Below, one piece after another: positions 34,105 through 45,501 of a DNA stretch of 64,000 nucleotides. The position numbers were made by a program, and so were the translations under genes. The notes below the pieces were generated by a model. The model worked only from the letters and a program-made list of their open reading frames with translations. It was not told the origin of the DNA and did no database searches. Positions within the stretch are counted from its first letter, which is position 1; each line of letters starts with the position of its first letter. This DNA comes from Paludisphaera mucosa (GTDB taxonomy: Bacteria; Planctomycetota; Planctomycetia; Isosphaerales; Isosphaeraceae): NCBI RefSeq assembly GCF_029589435.1, contig NZ_JARRAG010000001.1, forward strand, positions 1 through 64,000, read 5' to 3'.

Positions 34105-35883
34105 TCACGCGCCTGAGGTCCAGGCCCCCAGGGTCACCGTGATGGTCGTCGTCCCGTCGGGGACGGGGTCGAACTTCGCGGGGACCTGGGCCTGGCCCGT
34201 GGGCGCGGGGGGGACCGGGCCCGGGTTCTCGTCGAAGCTGAACCCGTAGGCCATGGCCATCGGGGCCCCGGTCTTGGCGACGGCGGGCTTGGCCGGCCGC
34301 ACGAAGATCGGCGAGCCGCCGACCGTCGCGGTGTGCAGGAACAGCGAGAAGAGGTTCTGGGGCTGCCCGGGCGGATACCAGTTGGATTCGGTGCCCCAGT
34401 ATCGGGTCGTACTCCCGTCCGTCGAGGGGGTCATCGGCCCCGGCGCTCCGGTCGTGCCGGGGACGACCGCCACGCCCCGGTTGAGGGCCGAGACGATCTG
34501 GTTCTCGAGGTTCCCCAGGACGGCGATCTGGGCTCCGGTCACCCCTTGCTGCACGGCGTCGGCGAAGAGGCCCGCGCCGCCGAACACCATCGCGCCCCGC
34601 GTGAGCTTCATGGTGCCGGTGTAGGGGAGCTGCGAGAAGACGAGCTGATCGCCGGTGACGGCGAACGGCAGCGGGTTCTTCAGGGTGACGACGACCTTGC
34701 CCGACTTGTCCCGGGCGAGGCTCGTGACGAAGTTCGTGGCCAGGCCCGCCGCCTGGTCGAAGTACTGCCCGAACACGTACATCCCGGGCTTCAGGACGCC
34801 CGGCAGCGGGGCGTTGGTCAGGGTGATCTTGTTGAGCGCGGTGGTCGTGGCGGCGGTGATCGGCTTGCCGTTGGCGCCCAGGAAGACGTTGACCCCGACC
34901 GGGCTGAAGACCTTGAGGGTGTTGCCGCCCCCCTGGAACCGCAGCCCCCGGAGCATCACGGGCTTGCCGGTCACGGGATTGACCAGCGACCCATATTGAT
35001 AGGTCCCCGCCGTCGCCGTGTAGACGTTGGAGTCCGTCCCCTTGAGGCTCCACCCGCTCCGCGCGAAGAGGGTGCCGAGGGCGCGGTCGAAGACGCCGTT
35101 CAGCGGGCTGGCCGCGTTCGCCGGCAGCGGGTTGCCCCCCGCCGGCTCGATCAGGTAGGTGTACGGGTTCAGCAGCCCCTCGGACTGGCCGGCCGCCTTC
35201 GCCGACGCGGTCAGCTGGAGCGGCTTGTACATCGTCCGGCCCGAGGCCGACGCGAACGTCTGGAACTGCGAGATGACGGCCGCGCGGGTGCCGCTCGCGC
35301 CCGAGAGGGGCTGGCCCACCTGGCCGAGGCCGTCGTTCAGCGTCAGCGTGACCGGGAAGGCGAAGCCGTCGACCGTCGGGACGTCGATCGTCGGCCGGCC
35401 GCCGCCGGACGGCTGGGTGAGTTCGAGATACTGATACACATAGGGATAGGCGGGCGGGTTCGCCGGCTGCGTGCCGAATGGGAACGAGGGCGGGGCCTGG
35501 CCGCTGGGCACGATGAAGAGGTAGATGCGGCCGCCGTCGACCGGCTGGGTCGTGTCGATCTGGATCGTGCCGTACTCGCCCTGGCCCGACCCGACCTGGA
35601 AGCTGGGCACCGTGTCGCCGTGCGCCGCGAACGCGAGCGTCCCCGGCGACGAGCCCGGCTGGAGCGTCAGTCCGCTCCCCGTGGAAAAGCCGTCGACGTA
35701 GATCGAGTACTTGGCGGGGTCGAGCAGCGTGCCGTCGACCAGGGGCAGCGTGTAGGTCGACAGGACGGTCCGGGATTCGAGCCGCTCCGGACGGAACGCG
35801 GCCCGGCGGCGGGGACGTCGCGACGTCGAAGTCCGGGGGCCGAACGTCCGCTTCCACGTTGAAGCGAGAGAGGGAACGATCAT
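34105..35883 (-). CDS. Cell-surface protein with LEPR-XLL-type N-terminus and beta-1,3-glucanase (GH64)-like region
   Basis: A 592-residue exported protein from ATG 35883 (AGGAGA 6 bases upstream). Residues about 25-42 contain RPERLESRTVLS, the LEPR-XLL-type motif found at the start of many planctomycete surface proteins in place of a classical signal peptide. Residues about 43-250 resemble glycoside hydrolase family 64/thaumatin-like sequences: YSIYVDGFSTG, GRIYLFIVPSG, YQYLELTQ, DVPTVDGFAFPVTLTLND and SGTRAAVISQFQTF. The rest is Gly/Thr/Pro-rich beta structure with ANPP-type loops. The glucanase assignment is by remembered pattern and is moderate; catalytic acids were not located. Confidence 0.7.
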   Translation of the reverse strand: MIVPSLASTWKRTFGPRTSTSRRPRRRAAFRPERLESRTVLSTYTLPLVDGTLLDPAKYSIYVDGFSTGSGLTLQPGSSPGTLAFAAHGDTVPSFQVGSGQGEYGTIQIDTTQPVDGGRIYLFIVPSGQAPPSFPFGTQPANPPAYPYVYQYLELTQPSGGGRPTIDVPTVDGFAFPVTLTLNDGLGQVGQPLSGASGTRAAVISQFQTFASASGRTMYKPLQLTASAKAAGQSEGLLNPYTYLIEPAGGNPLPANAASPLNGVFDRALGTLFARSGWSLKGTDSNVYTATAGTYQYGSLVNPVTGKPVMLRGLRFQGGGNTLKVFSPVGVNVFLGANGKPITAATTTALNKITLTNAPLPGVLKPGMYVFGQYFDQAAGLATNFVTSLARDKSGKVVVTLKNPLPFAVTGDQLVFSQLPYTGTMKLTRGAMVFGGAGLFADAVQQGVTGAQIAVLGNLENQIVSALNRGVAVVPGTTGAPGPMTPSTDGSTTRYWGTESNWYPPGQPQNLFSLFLHTATVGGSPIFVRPAKPAVAKTGAPMAMAYGFSFDENPGPVPPAPTGQAQVPAKFDPVPDGTTTITVTLGAWTSGA

Positions 35884-35969
35884 CAAGCTCTCCTGTTCAT
35901 CGGAACGGCGATGGGGTCGAGCGAGCGAGACTCCCCCCGGGCTCGGACGGCGCGGGGGAAACCGACGTG

Positions 35970-36016
35970 CGGGCCGAACGAGACGCTCGGCCCGAAAATC
36001 CGTAGAAAATTCTACG
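35970..36016. promoter_or_regulatory. Two adjacent palindromes upstream of the LEPR-XLL gene
   Basis: CGGGCCGA (35970-35977) with its complement at 35987-35994, and a 16-base perfect palindrome CGTAGAAAATTCTACG at 36001-36016. The second lies about 118-133 bp upstream of the minus-strand start at 35883. It has the symmetry of a repressor site. It could instead be part of the terminator of the upstream HEAT gene. Confidence 0.4.
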
Positions 36017-36126
36017 ACGCCGCGCAGGCGAGCGGGAGGGTGTGGGTGGATCGACGCCGTGCGGCGTTGCCCGAAAACCACATGCGATGTTCCGGCCGCC
36101 TCGACCCGAGGGAGGGCCGAGGCCGG

Positions 36127-37758
36127 TCACTGGGATTTCGCGGCGGCGTGGGGATCGATTTCTCTGAGGGCCTCCTCCACGGCGATCTGGACGCGGCCGT
36201 AGGAATCGCGGGGCGTCCGTCGCAATTCCGGGATGGAGCCCGCGGCGAGCGGGCCGAACCGGCCCAGGGACCGGGCGGCGGCCTCCCGCGTGTAGACCCG
36301 ATCGGCCCGCAGCGCCGGGACGAGGGCCGCGACGGCCGCCGGGGCCGCCTCGCATCCGGGCGCGATGCGGCCCAAGGCCGATGCGATCGGGGTGCCGCAA
36401 TCGAAAGAGCCCGGGGTCGCGATCGCTTCCCCGAGCGCCGAGGCGAGGGCGAGGATGGCGCCCTCGGCCTCGCCCCCCATGAGGCCCAGCGCCTCGGCCG
36501 CGGCCGCCCGCACCGGGGGCCGCTTCGAGCGCAGGGCGGCCGTGAGCGCGGCGACGACCCGATCGCCGGAAGGCGCGCCCGGGGCGATCCGCGAAAGGGC
36601 CCGGCACGCTTCGCGGGCCAGTTCCTCCATCGCGGGGGCGTCGGCCGTCCCGTCCCCGGCCAGGCCGCGCTCCAGGGCGGCGAGGAGTTCGGGGATCGCC
36701 CCGGCGGCCTCGCCCCCCATCGATCCCAGGGCGTACGCCGAGGCGTCGCGCACCCGGGGCTTTTCCGACCGCAGGGCGGCCGACAGCGCGGCGACCACCT
36801 GGTCGCGCGCAGCCGCGCCCGGCGCGATCCGGGCGAGGGCCAGCGACGCATCGAAGGTCAAATCCGGCATCGCGAACGAGGCGGGGGCGTCTGCCGATTC
36901 CAGGCTCCCCTCGAAGGCCGAGAGGAGTTCGGGGATCGCCTCGGAAGCCTCCGGGCCGATGTTCCCCAGGATCATCGACGACGCGATCCGCCCTCGCGCG
37001 TCGGGACCCTTGAGCGCCGCGATCAGGTCCGGGACCACGGCCGGGGAAGGCTTCAGCTTCCGCAACGGCCCGCGATAGTGGTTCTCCCATTGGTCGTCGG
37101 CCGCGATCAGCCGGAGCAGGGGCGGGATCGCCGGGTCGAGGCCCGCGGAGAACTCCGAAAGCGCCCGGGCCGCGGCGTAGCGGACGGCGGGGAAGGGGTC
37201 GTCCAGGGCGGAGATCAGCTCCCGCGGCGCTCGGGAGCCCGGCGGCTTGCCGAAGGCCGCCAGGGCGTCGGCGGCCGCCGTCCGGACGGCCGGATCGGGG
37301 TCGGTCAGGCATTTCAGCACCCCCGCGGCCGCGGCCCGAGCCGGTTCGAGGAACGCGGCCCCCGCGCCGCCCTGCTCCCCGAAGGGCCCCGACGAGCCGC
37401 CTGCGTCGCCGGCCGTCTTCGTCACGAGCCAGGCGATGGAACGGGCGGCCGCCTCGCGGACCTGGGGCTGGACGTCGTCGGCCGCCCCGGCGAGGGCCGC
37501 GAGCGCCTTCCAGGAGTCGTCGGGACCCGCGTCTCCCAACCTCGCCGCCGCCTCGCGACGCACGTACGCGTCCTCCTCGCCCAGGGCCTGGATGTGGGCG
37601 TCGACGGCGGGGTCGCCGCGACGGCGCGTGAACACGTCGTGCGTCGCGGCCCAGAAGACGAGCGGGAGACAGGCGGCGGCGGCGATGGCGAGCACGGCGA
37701 GGCGCTGGCGACGCGTCAACGGCGTCCGACTCGAATCCGAGGAACTCCAGGTATCCAT
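36127..37758 (-). CDS. HEAT-repeat protein with an N-terminal membrane anchor
   Basis: A 543-residue protein from ATG 37758 (GGAGGAGG about 8 bases upstream). Residues 19-38 form one membrane helix (LAVLAIAAAACLPLVFWAAT). The rest is about 10 HEAT-like helical repeats with the signature R-x-A-A-A-x-A-L-G-x-x-G/P: examples are YVRREAAARLGDAGP, AVRTAAADALAAFG, PVRAAAAEALGLMGG and YTREAAARSLGRFGP. HEAT proteins are binding scaffolds. It starts 36 bp downstream of the fused amidohydrolase on the same strand, so the two are probably in one transcript. Confidence 0.88.
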   Translation of the reverse strand: MDTWSSSDSSRTPLTRRQRLAVLAIAAAACLPLVFWAATHDVFTRRRGDPAVDAHIQALGEEDAYVRREAAARLGDAGPDDSWKALAALAGAADDVQPQVREAAARSIAWLVTKTAGDAGGSSGPFGEQGGAGAAFLEPARAAAAGVLKCLTDPDPAVRTAAADALAAFGKPPGSRAPRELISALDDPFPAVRYAAARALSEFSAGLDPAIPPLLRLIAADDQWENHYRGPLRKLKPSPAVVPDLIAALKGPDARGRIASSMILGNIGPEASEAIPELLSAFEGSLESADAPASFAMPDLTFDASLALARIAPGAAARDQVVAALSAALRSEKPRVRDASAYALGSMGGEAAGAIPELLAALERGLAGDGTADAPAMEELAREACRALSRIAPGAPSGDRVVAALTAALRSKRPPVRAAAAEALGLMGGEAEGAILALASALGEAIATPGSFDCGTPIASALGRIAPGCEAAPAAVAALVPALRADRVYTREAAARSLGRFGPLAAGSIPELRRTPRDSYGRVQIAVEEALREIDPHAAAKSQ

Positions 37759-37794
37759 CGAGCGACCTCCTCCGCGATCAAACACCCGGACGAT

Positions 37795-40700
37795 TCACGG
37801 CCGGTTCGCCTCGAACGCGACGCCGCCGTCGACGATCGTATGACGCACCTTGGCCCCGAGGACGCCCGCCGGGGGCTGCTGGAACAGGTCGCGGTCGAAG
37901 ACGGTGACGTCGGCGCGGAAGCCGGGCTTGAGGACGCCCGAGCGCATCTCGGCGAAGGCGGCGTAGGCGGCGCCCGCGGTGAAGGCCCGCAGGGTCTCTT
38001 CCAGGCTCATGCGCTGGTCGGGATGCCAGCCGCCCTTCGGCTCGCCCGCGGCGTCCTGGCGGGTGAGGGCGGCGTAGAGGCCCCACTGGGGGTCGACGAC
38101 CTCGACGGGGAAGTCGCTGCCGAACGCCAGGCGGACCTTGGCGTCGAGGAACCAGCGCCAGGCGTACGCGCCGTCGACCCGGCCGGGGCCGAGCCGCGCG
38201 TCGGCCCAGCGCATGTCGTCGCTGGCGTGCGAGGGCTGCATCGACGCGATCACCCCCAGCTCGGCGAACCGGGCGACGTCCTGCCTGCGGACCACCTGCG
38301 CGTGCTCGATCCGCAGCCTCGGCTCGGTCGCCAGCGGGAACGCCCGGCGCGCCGCGGCGAAGGCGTCGAGGACGAGCGCGTTCCCCTTGTCGCCGATCGC
38401 GTGGACGGCGACCTGCCAGCCGTTCTCGATGGCCGCGGCGGTCGTCGCCTCCAGCGTCTTGGGGTCGATCAGGAGGAGCCCGACGTTGTGCGGGTCGTCG
38501 GCGTAGGGCTCGAAGAGCAGGGCCCCGCGCGAGCCCATGGCGCCGTCGATGAACAGCTTGATCGCCCGCATCTCGAACCGGCTCCCCGGGGTCGCGGGCC
38601 TGGGCGGCTTGCTCACGAACTCGACCTCGCGGCCGGCGGGGGGCGAGGCCATCGCGTAGACCCGCAGCTTGAGCGCGCCGCCTTGATCCAGCTCGCCGAA
38701 GACCTCGGCCTCGCGGGCGGAGACCCCCGCGTCGTGGACGCCGGTCAGGCCGTACGAGAGGATGCGGTCCTGGGCCGCCAGGATCCGCTTGCGGACGTCT
38801 TCACGCGAGGGCGGCGGCACGACCCGGCCGACCAACCCCATGGCGCCGTCGATGAAGACGCCCGAGGGCCGGCCGTCGGCCAGGTGGTGGATCTGGCCGT
38901 CGGACGGGGGCTGCGACGACGCGTCGACGCCCGCACGCCTCATGGCCTCGGTGCTGGCCCATCCGGCGTGGCCGTCGACCCGCGAGAGCCAGACCGCCCG
39001 CCCGGGCGCGGCGGCGTCGAGGACCGAGGCGTCCGGGAAGGCGCCGCCGGGCCAGAGGCTCTGGTCCCAGTTCGCCCCCAGGACCCAGGCGTCGGCGGGC
39101 AGGCCGGCGGCGTGCTCCTTGACCCTTCGCGCCACCTCGTCGAGCGACTTGACGCCCCGGAGGTCGAGTTGGAGCAGGCTGGCGCCGAGCGACTCGATGT
39201 GGCCGTGGGCGTCGACGAGGCCGGGCGTCGCGAGCGTCCCGGGGGCCTCGACCAAGCGGGTCGACGGCCCTTTCCAGGCGAGCCCCTCGTCGCGCGAGCC
39301 GACGGCGACGATCGCGCCGGCGCGGGCCGCAAGGGCCTCGGCCCAGGGCCTGGCGGGGTCGCCGGTCCAGATCCGGCCGGGGAGCAGCACGAGGTCGGCC
39401 GGGCCGTCCTTCTTGAGCCGCAGCGCGCGGCCGGGGAGCCTGTCGTCGGGCCCGGGGTAGTCGGGCCGCTTGCCGTCGGCGACGACCGCGACGCCGTTGA
39501 CGAACACGAAGCGGGCGCCCTCCGCGTACTTCATCGGCTCCTCAAAGGTGGCGGCGTCGCGGAAGGTCTTCGGGTCGAAGACCACGAGGTCCGCGTACGC
39601 GCCCGGCCGCACGACGCCGCGGTCGCACAGGCCGAGGATGGAGGCCGGCAGGCCCGCGTTGGCGCGGACGGCCTGTTCGAGCGTGAGGACGTGCTCGTCC
39701 TCGGCATAGCGGATCTTGCGCGGGAAGGTGCCGAACGACCGCGGGTGCGGGCGGGCCCCGTCGTCGATCTCGCCGCGGGCCGAGCCGTCGGAGGCGGTGG
39801 CGACGAACTCGGACCGCATCACGGCCCGGACCTCGTCCTCGCTCATGCTGAAGTTGATCGCCTGCGTCCCGCCGTGGCGCTGGACGTCGAGCACGACCTC
39901 GATGGGCGTCGTCCCTTCCTCCTTCGCGATCGTCTCCAGGTCCTTGCCTACGCGGCTGGGCTTGGGGGCGTAGGTCGTCAGGCGGATGGCCGCGCCCCCC
40001 ATGCGCTCGTCCAACTCGCGCTGGATTTCTTCGCGGAGCTTGGGCCCTTGCACGGGGTCGTCGGCGAGCTTGGCGAAATCCTCCTTGCTCACGCGGACGG
40101 CCCAGTGGGGGACGACCATCGCGCCGAGCGACGTGCTGGAGGCGACGTACGGGTACTGGTCGGCGGTCGCGACGCGGCCTTTGGCGCGGGCCTCGGCGAT
40201 CTTAGCCAGGGCCTGGGCCGTCTTGCCCCAGTTGCGTCGGCCGCTGGCCTTGAGGTGGGAGATGTGCACCGGCGCGCCCGACTGTTCGCCGATCGCCAGG
40301 GCCTCGTCGACGGCTTCGAGCAGCCCTCGCTCCTCGTTGCGGATGTGGCTGGCGTAGATCCCGCCGTAGCCGTGGACGAGCTTCGCCAGCTCGACCAGCT
40401 CGGCGGTGCGGCCGTATCGGCTGGGGACGTAGATCAGGCCCGTCGACATCCCCCACGAGCCGGCGTCCATCGCCTGCTTCGCCAGCTCCTTGAGCTTCGC
40501 CATCTCCTCGGCGGTCGGTTCGCGGTCCTCGACGCCCAGCACGGCCCGGCGGAGCGCGCCGTGGGGGATCAGGTGGACGACGTTCGACCCCGCGCCGACG
40601 GCGTCGATCCGGGCGAAGTACTTCGCCACGTCGATCGGCCCCATCCCGCAGTTGCCGGTGACGATCGTGGTGACGCCCTGGGTGATGTAGTTGAGGTTGA

Positions 40701-41019
40701 GCCGGCCCTTCGCGGCCACGATGCCGTCGTCGGAGTGGGTGTGCAGGTCGATGAAGCCGGGGGCGACGACCAGGCCGGCGGCGTCGATCGTCCGCGACCG
40801 GGCCAGGGCCGCGAGGTCGCCGACGGCGACGATGCGATCGCCCCGGATCGCGACGTCGGCCGTCCGCCGGGGCGAGCCGGAGCCGTCGACGAGCGTCCCG
40901 CCGCGGATCACCACGTCGGCCGGAAGCTCCTCGGCCCGCGCGGGCCCCGCGACCCAGCAGGCCAGCGCCGTCAGGCCGGCGACGACGCGCAGGCCCCGAT
41001 TTCGTCCAAGGGTGATCAT
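37795..41019 (-). CDS. Fusion of D-aminoacylase and YtcJ-like amidohydrolase
   Basis: A 1074-residue secreted protein (signal peptide about residues 8-29) with two complete amidohydrolase barrels. Residues about 35-530 match N-acyl-D-amino-acid deacylase: DLHTHSDDG (His93, His95), TGNCGMGP (Cys124), ASHIRNEE (His225), ISHLKASG (His255) and ATASDGSARG (Asp411). Residues about 540-1074 match the YtcJ-like/LAF3 family: VDAHGHIESLG (His605, His607), RVDGHAGW, IDGAMGSRGA, VHAIGDKGN, IEHAQVV and FGSDFPVE. Both metal sites look intact. Each half alone is a normal gene length. No stop or frame change lies between them. The start at 41019 has AGAGGA 7 bases upstream. Confidence 0.92.
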   Translation of the reverse strand: MITLGRNRGLRVVAGLTALACWVAGPARAEELPADVVIRGGTLVDGSGSPRRTADVAIRGDRIVAVGDLAALARSRTIDAAGLVVAPGFIDLHTHSDDGIVAAKGRLNLNYITQGVTTIVTGNCGMGPIDVAKYFARIDAVGAGSNVVHLIPHGALRRAVLGVEDREPTAEEMAKLKELAKQAMDAGSWGMSTGLIYVPSRYGRTAELVELAKLVHGYGGIYASHIRNEERGLLEAVDEALAIGEQSGAPVHISHLKASGRRNWGKTAQALAKIAEARAKGRVATADQYPYVASSTSLGAMVVPHWAVRVSKEDFAKLADDPVQGPKLREEIQRELDERMGGAAIRLTTYAPKPSRVGKDLETIAKEEGTTPIEVVLDVQRHGGTQAINFSMSEDEVRAVMRSEFVATASDGSARGEIDDGARPHPRSFGTFPRKIRYAEDEHVLTLEQAVRANAGLPASILGLCDRGVVRPGAYADLVVFDPKTFRDAATFEEPMKYAEGARFVFVNGVAVVADGKRPDYPGPDDRLPGRALRLKKDGPADLVLLPGRIWTGDPARPWAEALAARAGAIVAVGSRDEGLAWKGPSTRLVEAPGTLATPGLVDAHGHIESLGASLLQLDLRGVKSLDEVARRVKEHAAGLPADAWVLGANWDQSLWPGGAFPDASVLDAAAPGRAVWLSRVDGHAGWASTEAMRRAGVDASSQPPSDGQIHHLADGRPSGVFIDGAMGLVGRVVPPPSREDVRKRILAAQDRILSYGLTGVHDAGVSAREAEVFGELDQGGALKLRVYAMASPPAGREVEFVSKPPRPATPGSRFEMRAIKLFIDGAMGSRGALLFEPYADDPHNVGLLLIDPKTLEATTAAAIENGWQVAVHAIGDKGNALVLDAFAAARRAFPLATEPRLRIEHAQVVRRQDVARFAELGVIASMQPSHASDDMRWADARLGPGRVDGAYAWRWFLDAKVRLAFGSDFPVEVVDPQWGLYAALTRQDAAGEPKGGWHPDQRMSLEETLRAFTAGAAYAAFAEMRSGVLKPGFRADVTVFDRDLFQQPPAGVLGAKVRHTIVDGGVAFEANRP

Positions 41020-41080
41020 GCGGTGATCCTCTTTCAGCCCGATCGGATCCGGCCGCCGGGCCTGGTCCCGCGGCGGCGCG

Positions 41081-43546
41081 TCACCCGAGGTTACCGGAGG
41101 GGCGAGGATCGGCGGAAGGGGCGGCCGCGGAGGCCGCGACGTCGGACGCGGGTGCGGGCGCGGCCGGCGCGGGGGTCGTCGCGACGAGGGCCGGGGGGCG
41201 TCGCCGCCGCCGCTCGCCCAGGGTGAGGCAGGCGGGGAGCAGCAGCAGGTTCCCCAGCGTGCTGCCGCCGGTGGCGACGGCCACCATCGTGCCGAAGTTG
41301 ACGAACGGCTCGAATTCGCTCGTCCGCAGGGCGAGGAAGCCGACGGCCACCGCCAGGCTGGAGAGCAGCACCCCCGGCCCCGACACCGCGTAGCTGGCGA
41401 ACAGGCTGCGGCGGAACCCGCGCGTCTTGCGCAGCCTGTGGTACTGGATCAGGCAGTGGAACGTGTCGTCGACCGAGAGCCCCAGCGCCACGCTCGCCAC
41501 CAGCGCCGTGGCGATGTCCAGCTTGATCGAGAGCCAGCCCATCAGGCCCAGGACGAAGGCCACCGACAGCAGGGTGGGCAACAGCGCCAGGGCGGCCAGG
41601 GCGGGGCTGCGGAAGGCCAGGGTGAGCATCGCCAGGATGCCGAAGGCCGACCAGGCGAACGTGCTCCACTGGGTCGCGACCACGCCCTCGGTCGTCTTGG
41701 TCATCAGGTACGACAGGCCCGTCAGGTAGGCGTCGGGGCCGAACTCGGCGCGGGCGGCGTCCTCGGCGCGGCGGAAGATCGACGCCTTGGTCGCGGCCGG
41801 CTGCTGTTCGAGCAGGCGGACGAGGATCCGCGTCTGCTTGGCCTCGGGGTTCCAGAAGTTCCGCAGCAGCGAGGCCTGGGGCGAGGCCGCGATCAGGTCG
41901 AGCTTGTCGGCCAGCACGCGGGCGCGGGCGTCGGGGGCGAGCGCCGCGATCCGGCCGTCGGGGTCCAGCACGGTCGCCAGCGAGAGCACCTGCGCCACGG
42001 CCCGGGGGTCCTCGGGCGTCAGGCCCCGGATCACGCCGCCGACCCGTTCGAGCTTCGCCACGGCGTCGAAGTCCAGGGTCGACCCGACCGGGGCGACGAT
42101 CTCGACGAGGCCGATGCCGCCCAGCTTGGACTCGACCCGCTTGTAGTCGCGGACCACCCGCGTCGCCGGCTTGAACAGGTTGATGTAGTTGGTCTCATAC
42201 GTGAGCCGGAACATGCCGACCGCCAGCGGCAGCGTCACGGCGGCGACGGTCGCCACCACGATCGTGGGTTGGCGGTGGACCAGCAGCGTGAGCCGGTTCA
42301 TCGCCGCCGAGACCCGCGATTTCGACCCCTGGCGGACCGGGATTTCCATGGGGAAGGGGGGCAGCATGGCCACCGGCGCGAGGGCCATCACGAGCACCGC
42401 GGCGATCAGCGTGCAGCTCCCCAGGATCGCCCCGAACTGGCGGATCGGCATCACGTCGCTGGTGACGAGCGCGAGGTAGCCGATGGCCCCCGTGGCGGCC
42501 GTCCAGAGGATCGGCGTCAGGACCGCACGCAGCGTCGTCCGCGCCGCGGGGCGGGGGGCCATCTTGCGGCGGTCGTCGCGGAAGTGGATCGCCAGGTGGC
42601 TCGCCGCCGGCATCGTGAGCACGATGATCTGGGCCACGAGCGGCCCTCCCGACAGCGACAGCCGGATCCCCAGGGCGTGCAAAAGCGCCTCGGTCGCCAG
42701 CCAGACCGTCCAGCCGGCGACGATCGGCACGATCGCCCACCAGACGCTGCGCACGGCCGAGAGCGTGACGAGCGCGATCAGGATCATCCCGACCGCCGCC
42801 AGCCGCCGGCCGTCGATCTCGATCGAGGCGAAGCCGTCCGCCAGCAGGACGGGCGGGCCCACGACCGCGGGCCGGGCCAGTCCGTGCCGGGCGGCGAACG
42901 CGTCGGCCTTCTCGCGGAGCTGGCGCACGGTCGCGACGACGTCGTGCTCGTTGGTCTTCCGCAGGCGGGCGACGACCGCCGTCGTCGTCGCGGTCGGGTC
43001 GATGAGCGTGCCGACGAACAGGGCGTTCTTGACCAGCCGCTCCTGGATCGCCGCCCGCCGCGCGGCGTCGGCCCCCCGCACGGCCCCGCCGACGGTCATG
43101 CTGTTCGTCTTGAGGTCGATGTTCTTGACGGCCCGCCGGGCCGCGTCCATCGCCGGCTTGCGCGCGAAGTTCGGCAGCTTGTCGAGCGTCAGCAGGGCGT
43201 CGTCGAGCGCCCAGACCAGCGGCATGGCGTCGATCGACTCGACCCGCACCACGCCGGGGATCGCGGCCGGCGAGACCGCCGCGGCCAGCTCGGCGGCGCG
43301 GTCCACGCCGGCCGCGCTGACGACCTCGGGGTCGTCGTAGACCAGGAAGACGAAGTTGTCGTCGCCGAAGGTCGCGGCGGCGTCCTGATAGACCCTCATC
43401 GCCGGGTCGTCCTCGGCGAAGAACGATCCGATCGACTGCTCGTAGCCGACGCGCTCGCCGAAGACGACCAGGTAGGCCAGCAGCGCCAGGACGATCGACC
43501 CGACGACGTAGCGCGAGCGCAGCAGGATTTCGATCACGGCGGCCAA
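41081..43546 (-). CDS. MMPL/RND-family exporter (HpnN-like)
   Basis: An 821-residue membrane protein starting at TTG 43546 (GAGAAGG 4 bases upstream). Two sets of helices with an RND-like plan: helix 1 (VGSIVLALLAYLVVFG), a large periplasmic loop (about 40-250), helices 2-6 with LSGGPLVAQIIVLTMPAA, a second loop and helices 7-12, including ALVASVALGLSVDDTFHCLI, in which a pair of Asp replaces the usual proton-relay Asp. MMPL proteins export lipids such as hopanoids, glycolipids and siderophores. The C-terminal 45 residues are Ala/Pro-rich. It is 61 bp upstream of the fused amidohydrolase on the same strand. Confidence 0.9.
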   Translation of the reverse strand: MAAVIEILLRSRYVVGSIVLALLAYLVVFGERVGYEQSIGSFFAEDDPAMRVYQDAAATFGDDNFVFLVYDDPEVVSAAGVDRAAELAAAVSPAAIPGVVRVESIDAMPLVWALDDALLTLDKLPNFARKPAMDAARRAVKNIDLKTNSMTVGGAVRGADAARRAAIQERLVKNALFVGTLIDPTATTTAVVARLRKTNEHDVVATVRQLREKADAFAARHGLARPAVVGPPVLLADGFASIEIDGRRLAAVGMILIALVTLSAVRSVWWAIVPIVAGWTVWLATEALLHALGIRLSLSGGPLVAQIIVLTMPAASHLAIHFRDDRRKMAPRPAARTTLRAVLTPILWTAATGAIGYLALVTSDVMPIRQFGAILGSCTLIAAVLVMALAPVAMLPPFPMEIPVRQGSKSRVSAAMNRLTLLVHRQPTIVVATVAAVTLPLAVGMFRLTYETNYINLFKPATRVVRDYKRVESKLGGIGLVEIVAPVGSTLDFDAVAKLERVGGVIRGLTPEDPRAVAQVLSLATVLDPDGRIAALAPDARARVLADKLDLIAASPQASLLRNFWNPEAKQTRILVRLLEQQPAATKASIFRRAEDAARAEFGPDAYLTGLSYLMTKTTEGVVATQWSTFAWSAFGILAMLTLAFRSPALAALALLPTLLSVAFVLGLMGWLSIKLDIATALVASVALGLSVDDTFHCLIQYHRLRKTRGFRRSLFASYAVSGPGVLLSSLAVAVGFLALRTSEFEPFVNFGTMVAVATGGSTLGNLLLLPACLTLGERRRRRPPALVATTPAPAAPAPASDVAASAAAPSADPRPSGNLG

Positions 43547-43707: not shown

Positions 43708-45501
43708 TCACTCGCCCAGGGCCGCGTAACGGACGATCCGGAAGCGGGCGCCCTGGGCGTCGCGGATCCGGGCCGCGAGCTTCTCGTGGAGTTCGGGGGT
43801 CCAGGCCCCCCATCGGGTGAAGAAGGCCTCGGCGGCGGCCCGGTCGCCCTCGTACTGCGCCGCGAGCACTTCGCGGAGGAGGTCGGTGACGACTTCCGCG
43901 TACCGGGCGTAGTCGATGCTCAGCCGCGCGGTCGTCGGGTCGGCGGCGATCAGGCCCTTCTCCAGGAAGTAATTGAACTGGGCGAGCTGCATCGTCTGGT
44001 AGGGCTGGTCCTTGCGAGGTTTGACGTTCTGGAGCGTGCGACGGACGCCGCCGGCCTGGACGGCGCGGAGGAGGGTCGCGTCGATCGCGCCGTCCTTCGC
44101 CATGCGGTGCAGGGTGAACAGGGAGACGAGGTCGGCCTTCATCTCCTCGAGCGCGTCGGCCTGGTCCTGGAGGGCCGCGTCGAGCGTGCGTCCCTGCTTG
44201 TCACGATCTACGCCCAGGTAGTGGCCGACCTCGTGCCAGAGCGTCCGCTGGAAGTTCCCCGCCGGGGCGAGGTCGTCGGCGAACGCGTCGTTCGTGGCCG
44301 CCCTCCAGATCCGCAGGTCGGCCGCGAAGATTTCGGGGTGCTCCATCACGTTGCGACGCAGCAGGATGGTGCGGCCGTACTTGCGAGAGAAGGCCGCGTC
44401 GTTCGGCAGGATCGTCGCCGTGTTCGTGCCGCGGGCCTGGCCGAAGTCGGCGACGACGTCGTAGATCCCCACGGAGATGTCTTCCCGGACGCGTTTGTGA
44501 TGGTCGTAGGGGAGCGCGTCCTCCACCTGCTGGAGCCCGCCCAGCTTCTTGCGCAGCTCGTCGGTCGCCGCGCGATCGTTCAGGAGAAGGCTGAAGCTGG
44601 AGAACGCCTTCACCCCGAAGAGGGCGTCGTCGTAGGTCTCGTAGGCGCCGATCTGCGCGTTGAGCTTCTTGAAGCGGCCGGCGACCCACGACGCGTCGCC
44701 GCTCTCGTAATCGTTCGACAGGAGGTCGCGGGCGCGGTTGCGGAGGTAGGCGGCCAGATCCTCGTCGGTCGGCTCGATGCTGGCGGCGGCGTCGACCATA
44801 TGCTCGTAGGCCAGCCGTAGGTCGGCCCCGTAGGCCACCGCGTAAGGCACGGCGTAGAACGCCTTGGGGTCGGGGCTCCGGGAGAGCGCCTGCAGCTCGG
44901 CCTTGAGGCCCCGATGCAAGACGCCGAGGGCGCCGTCCTCGAGCGCCTTGAGGTCGCGATCGAGGCTCTCGCGCGTCGCCCGTCTTACGACGCTGCGCTC
45001 GGCGAGGATCGTGCTTCGGCGTTCGGGATGGGCGGCGATGAAGGCGTTCACCTCGTCGCCGGTCGCGTCGATCGGGTAGACGTTCCGCCCGGGGACCTGC
45101 GGGTCGACGGGCAGGAACGGCTCGCGGGCGTTGGCGAGCGTGGTGGCGATCGGGCCCTGGAAGAGCCGGTAGAGGTCGAGGAGGTCCTTCGTCCGCTTCG
45201 GCCCGCCCAGGCGGCGGTCCAGCGCGATCAGATCCCGTCCGGCCTTCAACGCCTGGTGGTGGCGAGCCTCCTCGTAGAGCCCCTGGAAGATCGCGCCGGC
45301 CTTGAGCAGGGAGCCGACGGCCGCCTTCTCGCCGTCGTCGAGCCCGGAGAGGTCGGGGGCCAGCCGGATCTCCTGGGTCTTCGCCAAAATCTCGACGACC
45401 TTGGCTTCGGGCCAGCATCCGCCGGGAAAGGCGGCCGGATCCTCGGCGAGCGCCGCGCCGGTCGTCATCAATCCCAGGGCCAGTCCGGATAGGAATTTCA
45501 T
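43708..45501 (-). CDS. M49-like (dipeptidyl-peptidase III-type) zinc metallopeptidase, exported
   Basis: A 597-residue protein with signal peptide (MKFLSGLALGLMTTGAALAE). The zinc motif is LWHEVGHYLG (His423, Glu424, His427), then a third ligand in ALEEMKADLVSL (Glu452/Glu453). This is an HExxH version of the M49 motif (canonical HExxGH), as reported in some bacterial members such as Caldithrix. Around it are the family segments GTNTATILPND and ILLRRNVMEHPEI. M49 enzymes cleave dipeptides from the N-terminus of short peptides. The upstream region is divergent from a lactonase gene. Confidence 0.85.
   Translation of the reverse strand: MKFLSGLALGLMTTGAALAEDPAAFPGGCWPEAKVVEILAKTQEIRLAPDLSGLDDGEKAAVGSLLKAGAIFQGLYEEARHHQALKAGRDLIALDRRLGGPKRTKDLLDLYRLFQGPIATTLANAREPFLPVDPQVPGRNVYPIDATGDEVNAFIAAHPERRSTILAERSVVRRATRESLDRDLKALEDGALGVLHRGLKAELQALSRSPDPKAFYAVPYAVAYGADLRLAYEHMVDAAASIEPTDEDLAAYLRNRARDLLSNDYESGDASWVAGRFKKLNAQIGAYETYDDALFGVKAFSSFSLLLNDRAATDELRKKLGGLQQVEDALPYDHHKRVREDISVGIYDVVADFGQARGTNTATILPNDAAFSRKYGRTILLRRNVMEHPEIFAADLRIWRAATNDAFADDLAPAGNFQRTLWHEVGHYLGVDRDKQGRTLDAALQDQADALEEMKADLVSLFTLHRMAKDGAIDATLLRAVQAGGVRRTLQNVKPRKDQPYQTMQLAQFNYFLEKGLIAADPTTARLSIDYARYAEVVTDLLREVLAAQYEGDRAAAEAFFTRWGAWTPELHEKLAARIRDAQGARFRIVRYAALGE

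Follow-up and report, generated by a model that had tools for sequence, protein, structure and literature searches.

D-aminoacylase from Alcaligenes faecalis (1m7j) and the Bordetella N-acyl-D-glutamate deacylase (3gip) are subtype V amidohydrolases with a Cys/His/His metal site, an HxH motif, and a catalytic Asp. In PMC12017989, Lys, Tyr, Ser, and Arg residues are assigned the role of carboxylate anchors and, for the GlcNAc1A deacetylase OngB (PpOngB, 9kb1), Leu116 is the acetamido contact and Ser292 the discriminating residue. Among the YtcJ-like/Amidohydro_3 proteins, the solved members 3icj and 3igh are uncharacterized. A preprint (PMC13081902) describes the six-residue metal site of YtcJ-type enzymes and, in Bilophila, a metal-dependent bile salt hydrolase, BwBSH1, in which Ser194, Gln381, Asn443, and His544 bind the sulfonate and His196 is catalytic. 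BwBSH1 is an exported YtcJ/Amidohydro_3 protein whose extra domain is described there only as an additional C-terminal domain.

The window, that is, the whole stretch of 64,000 nucleotides of Paludisphaera mucosa DNA analyzed here, encodes on its minus strand (37795..41019, read from 41019) a protein in which an enzyme of the first kind is followed by one of the second. The gene is a single uninterrupted open reading frame of 1,074 codons, from an ATG start to the stop with no internal stop codon, and full-length homologues with 82 to 85% identity are found in four of the five other genomes of the genus. Residues 1 to 29, approximately (40933..41019, minus strand), resemble a signal peptide by eye: they begin with basic residues, continue with a hydrophobic run, and close with A-x-A. 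A crude hydrophobicity scan of 20 fused relatives found a candidate export start in 17 of them and none in G003, G001, and G033, and we consider the protein, which the initial annotation had called secreted, to be probably exported. Domain 1 (D1, residues ~30 to 515, 39475..40932, minus strand) is a predicted D-aminoacylase-like barrel with a beta-sandwich, and domain 2 (D2, residues ~537 to 1074, 37798..39411, minus strand) is a predicted YtcJ/Amidohydro_3-like barrel. The junction (residues ~516 to 541, 39397..39474, minus strand) is made of a tail of D1's native type, a few residues, and then [DE]GP; this short pattern, G[RK]xL[RK]xxx[DE]GP, recurs in 20 of 21 full-length fused proteins and is absent from G010. 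An antisense open frame of 1,771 codons (35911..41226, plus strand) overlaps the fused gene as well as its neighbors and is probably a product of the high GC content.

Comparison by phmmer with solved structures matched residues ~30 to 515 to 1m7j (2.9e-87), 3gip (2.1e-77), and 1rjp, and residues ~541 to 1067 to 3icj (2.2e-46) and 3igh (7.2e-44). The whole protein scores 413.2 bits against PF07969, for which the gathering score is 29.7, the best stretch (residues 589 to 1067) spanning positions 2 to 470 of 472, and PF01979 also matches. In an AlphaFold2 model built from the 21 fused sequences (pLDDT 80.7, pTM 0.79), nine D-aminoacylase-type chains (3gip, 1m7j, 9g5m, and OngB with its variants) matched model residues 3 to 513 at Z scores of 43.4 to 45.2. 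The score was 45.2 for 3gip (model residues 3 to 506, 449 residues aligned) and 44.4 for 1m7j (model residues 4 to 506, 448 residues aligned). Model residues 512 to 1029, corresponding to D2, matched 3igh at Z 40.8 over 472 residues and 3icj at Z 39.1 over 458 residues, below which the next best structure drops to Z 32.5. Judged by sequence and predicted fold, the first half is of the D-aminoacylase kind and the second of the YtcJ/Amidohydro_3 kind, which agrees with the separate subfamilies initially assigned to them. Unlike 1m7j and 3gip, D1 is joined to a second enzyme, and D2 is the second domain of a fusion whereas 3icj and 3igh are whole proteins.

Both active sites are complete, so that the initial description of two entire amidohydrolases within one 1,074-residue protein stands. 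D1 carries H93 and H95 of the HxH motif, the Cys/His/His metal site formed by C124, H225, and H255, and the catalytic D411, whereas D2 carries H605, H607, K821, H873, H906, and D969 (HxH, Lys, His, His, Asp), the six metal-site residues that it shares with 3icj and 3igh; going by the description of BwBSH1 in PMC13081902, its metal site is of the same kind. All 12 residues are invariant in the 21 full-length fused proteins, that of the window included, and the six of D1 are kept in 51 of 51 D1 rows. The carboxylate anchors known from 1m7j and 3gip are also present: K257, S295, and R427 in 21/21 fused proteins and Y289 in 20/21 (G001 differs), the Tyr being assigned by the residue spacing given in PMC12017989, and Tyr291 is likewise invariant in the fused proteins. 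Purifying selection is alike in the two halves, with dN/dS values of 0.218 to 0.335 for D1 and 0.205 to 0.340 for D2 (Nei-Gojobori script, all 10 pairs of five genomes of the genus). Where only one half is left in the family, its active site is kept as well, in 7/7 D1 rows without a whole D2 and in 4/4 D2 rows without D1.

The residues lining the D1 cavity give a mixed picture of the substrate. The anchor Ser295 is directly followed by Thr296, as in D-aminoacylases. D1 has the fold of PpOngB (Z 43.8) and its anchoring residues; however, in 21/21 fused proteins Thr296 stands where the OngB enzymes have the discriminating Ser292, which argues against the OngB reaction. Ser259, a small residue, occupies the position of a Met in 1m7j, as read from the alignment. 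Compared with 1m7j and 3gip, D1 lacks 23 residues in the stretch after the metal-site Cys (HMMER alignment), and the region around the equivalent of OngB Leu116 lies in this shortened, gap-rich part, the loop-2 position being poorly alignable. The fused protein as a whole resembles BwBSH1 in being an exported YtcJ/Amidohydro_3 protein with an additional domain (export being probable here), which differs from that of BwBSH1 in being N terminal and a second complete amidohydrolase. We rate the protein as a combination of known enzyme kinds that is itself undescribed: as the initial annotation supposed, no published account of the fusion was found among 5.39 million open papers, a scope outside which subscription papers and unannotated database entries lie.

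The genome set of the order consists of one family, Isosphaeraceae, with 45 genomes. The full-length fusion occurs in one frame in 21 of them, the window's included, and is cut by contig ends in two more (G019, and G060, where it lies across two contigs). D1 without D2 was found in seven family genomes (G061, G021, G025, G020, G007, G026, and G034, the last as a partial match at a contig start), D1 with a D2 lacking its barrel in G023, and D2 without D1 in four (G002, G011, G015, and G024), and the ten other genomes (eleven with G034) gave no match at 1e-120. Outside the family, no fusion was detected in 297 genomes of the class, 45 of which are the family members (1e-130), or in 294 genomes of the phylum (1e-170); these searches scored the two best candidates per genome, and their cut-offs could miss a very distant fusion. 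A scan of named genomes with DNA patterns drawn from D2 retained the best 80 of at least 552 loci. Nine of these 80 are fused, eight of them assigned to Isosphaeraceae, Paludisphaera, Aquisphaera, Singulisphaera, or Planctomycetales and one to Planctomycetota only; of the others, L149 is D2 alone and 70 are D2 loci with no D1 above 80 bits. The same architecture, which the initial annotation proposed to seek in other planctomycete genomes, is thus present there, among the genomes searched in Isosphaeraceae only.

The trees and the remnants of the missing halves point to the order of events. Family rows are monophyletic relative to 21 outgroup rows in the D1 tree (support 100/96) and relative to 17 outgroup rows in the D2 tree (98/96), although the inner branches are weakly supported. 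Several single-half rows are nested among fused ones: G021 and G061 group with the fused G060 and G062 (100/98), G023 with the fused G035 (100/100), G002 with five fused congeners (99/99), and G015 with the fused G031 and G014 (100/96). The fewest state changes number five on each tree, the starred branches forcing four for D1 and three for D2. Since such counts alone cannot separate gain from loss, the direction is taken from the remnants. In G011, a hydrophobic start leads into the fusion junction and then D2; G015 has an apparent first strand of D1 directly before D2; and in G023, D1 is followed by the beginning and a C-terminal part of D2, the barrel being missing. At this last locus (L064, 3..1826), the fused gene has lost the whole D2 barrel, and an intact D1 still carries both ends of D2. 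The G025 and G020 proteins stop just past the DGP junction motif, and the tails of G061 and G021 are altered.

Outside the family, D1 proteins have little sequence beyond the equivalent tail. The native tail is readable in 20 of 21 outgroup D1 rows (G187 being unreadable), and none of these 20 contains the DGP junction, G168 having an EGP at a different spacing. In the locus of G187 (L089, 7466..12467), two single-domain D-aminoacylase-like genes lie in tandem, each with 51% identity to D1. The ends of G007 and G026 resemble those of the unfused outgroup D1 proteins, with the prefusion type of tail, and these two might never have been fused. Taken together, the trees are consistent with a single fusion, after which one or the other half was lost repeatedly. 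Fission was considered and set aside in favor of loss, since the one-half genomes gave no second match at 1e-120, although draft genomes could hide one. Part of the losses could be only apparent, since G011, G015, G023, G061, and G020 are draft genomes, in which an assembly error may look like a deletion. With regard to the sources of the two halves, 20 outgroup D1 loci (including L072 and L073) show no D2 in the stretch read, usually 8 to 10 kb on each side and less at contig ends. D2 may have a history different from that of D1 because, in a wider D2 tree (midpoint root, bootstrap not settled, moderate support), the family D2, together with G041, clusters with five myxococcal rows (90/81), apart from 13 other planctomycete D2 rows and L184.

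Starting from the gene, its homology, its ligands, its restriction to one family among the genomes searched, and the domain losses, all of which can be read directly, the best explanation as a whole, which we consider probable, is one ancestral fusion that gave two coexported, independent amidases, with later losses of halves. A resident planctomycete D1 gene and a YtcJ-type D2 gene, unlinked in the outgroup loci read, would have been joined end to end once in the ancestor of the family. The export signal would have been kept at the start of the joined gene, so that both amidases reach the periplasm as one chain. D1 would most likely deacylate a substrate that has a carboxylate beside the amide, of the N-acyl D-amino acid type, presumably using the Cys/His/His metal site with Asp411 as the catalytic residue. 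D2 would hydrolyze another amide at a binuclear site in which a carboxylated lysine forms the bridge. The benefit would probably be coexport and a 1:1 dosage of two scavenging amidases rather than an obligate pathway, since in several lineages one half has later disappeared and the half that remains has an intact active site. The same losses suggest that each half works alone.

An alternative is a coupled bifunctional enzyme, in which D1 and D2 act in turn on one and the same substrate, such as an N-acyl D-amino acid conjugate or a lipo-amino acid, and their joining makes transfer from site to site more efficient. Such an enzyme would be in keeping with two fully kept active sites in 21/21 fused proteins, a short junction conserved in 20/21, and the persistence of the fusion across the family. 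However, either half has repeatedly been lost while the other keeps its ligands, and the halves have no genomic linkage in the outside loci read; we therefore regard this alternative as unlikely, though worth keeping in mind. A more specific form, a two-step periplasmic enzyme that cuts one natural N-acylated substrate at two amide bonds, passes the intermediate between paired barrels, and has been abandoned by lineages that changed substrate or use another enzyme, is a little harder to credit. The sequential or coupled hydrolysis put forward in the initial annotation is not supported in an obligate form; a facultative coupling may exist.

The same annotation had also hinted that the fusion and its neighbors form an export and processing module, a reading that we deem improbable. 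In the window, an MMPL/RND-type gene (41081..43546, minus strand, PF03176) lies 61 bp upstream of the fusion and a HEAT-repeat gene (36127..37785, minus strand, PF13646) 9 bp downstream, all on the same strand. When the neighbors were searched by tblastn at 1e-10 in the fused loci of 20 relatives, the MMPL gene was found upstream and on the same strand in 10, but at most about 0.6 kb from the fusion in only 5, namely, L039 to L042 of the window's genus and L045 of another genus, and at 2 to 5 kb in L044 and L046 to L049. Nine fused loci (L050 to L058) showed no MMPL match over about 8 kb of upstream sequence, and the stretch of L043 is too short on that side to tell. Of the family's 13 loci with a single half or a cut fusion, 4 (L059, L062, L063, and L066) also have the MMPL gene upstream on the same strand. 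The HEAT gene, with a match in 1/20 (45% identical, 3.4 kb away), was rejected as a conserved partner. What stands of the proposed module is a possible link between the MMPL gene and the fusion, and this linkage in half of the fused loci leaves room for a functional context.

A ThuA-type gene, its family assigned on the window copy, lies on the opposite strand in 9 of the 20 fused loci and cannot share a transcript with the fusion, since the two are convergent. Some single-half loci keep the same neighbors, namely, MMPL in L059, L062, and L066 and ThuA in L059, L060, L062, L068, L070, and L071, and several losses can therefore be placed at the ancestral locus. For stand-alone D2 genes of other phyla, clustering of the longest open reading frames at 70 loci gave nothing usable on the neighbors, spurious frames dominating the GC-rich stretches. 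Two further genes of the window were noted. A metallopeptidase-like protein of 597 residues (43708..45501, minus strand) has an HEVGH motif and a subthreshold Pfam match (MPTase-PolyVal), and an 83% identical copy lies upstream of the MMPL gene in one congener (L039). A protein of 658 residues (34105..36081, minus strand) has a weak, subthreshold match to beta-1,3-glucanase GH64.

That one half serves mainly as a scaffold or stabilizer of the other, its own chemistry being secondary, would agree with the short junction between the domains, but the invariant ligands and equally low dN/dS of both halves, as well as the existence of each half alone, make it very improbable. An assembly or frameshift artifact joining two neighboring genes, for which no supporting point was found, is ruled out by independently sequenced isolates and metagenome-assembled genomes with the same architecture (e.g., Paludisphaera soli JC670, Aquisphaera insulae JC669, and Singulisphaera sp. 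GP187), and these independent assemblies also answer the initial concern about an assembly join or orthologues that are always split. The fusion is thus natural, as first supposed.

The reading as two coexported, independent amidases that arose by one fusion gives the history of this gene more use than the fusion itself. With one fusion, reciprocal and repeated losses, remnants, and often the same neighbors, it offers a test made by nature of whether the joining of two enzymes is of consequence. The joined state may count for more than coexport, given that 23 of 45 genomes keep the fusion. It is also a caution for function prediction, because a fusion by itself is no proof of a shared pathway, although one is commonly inferred.
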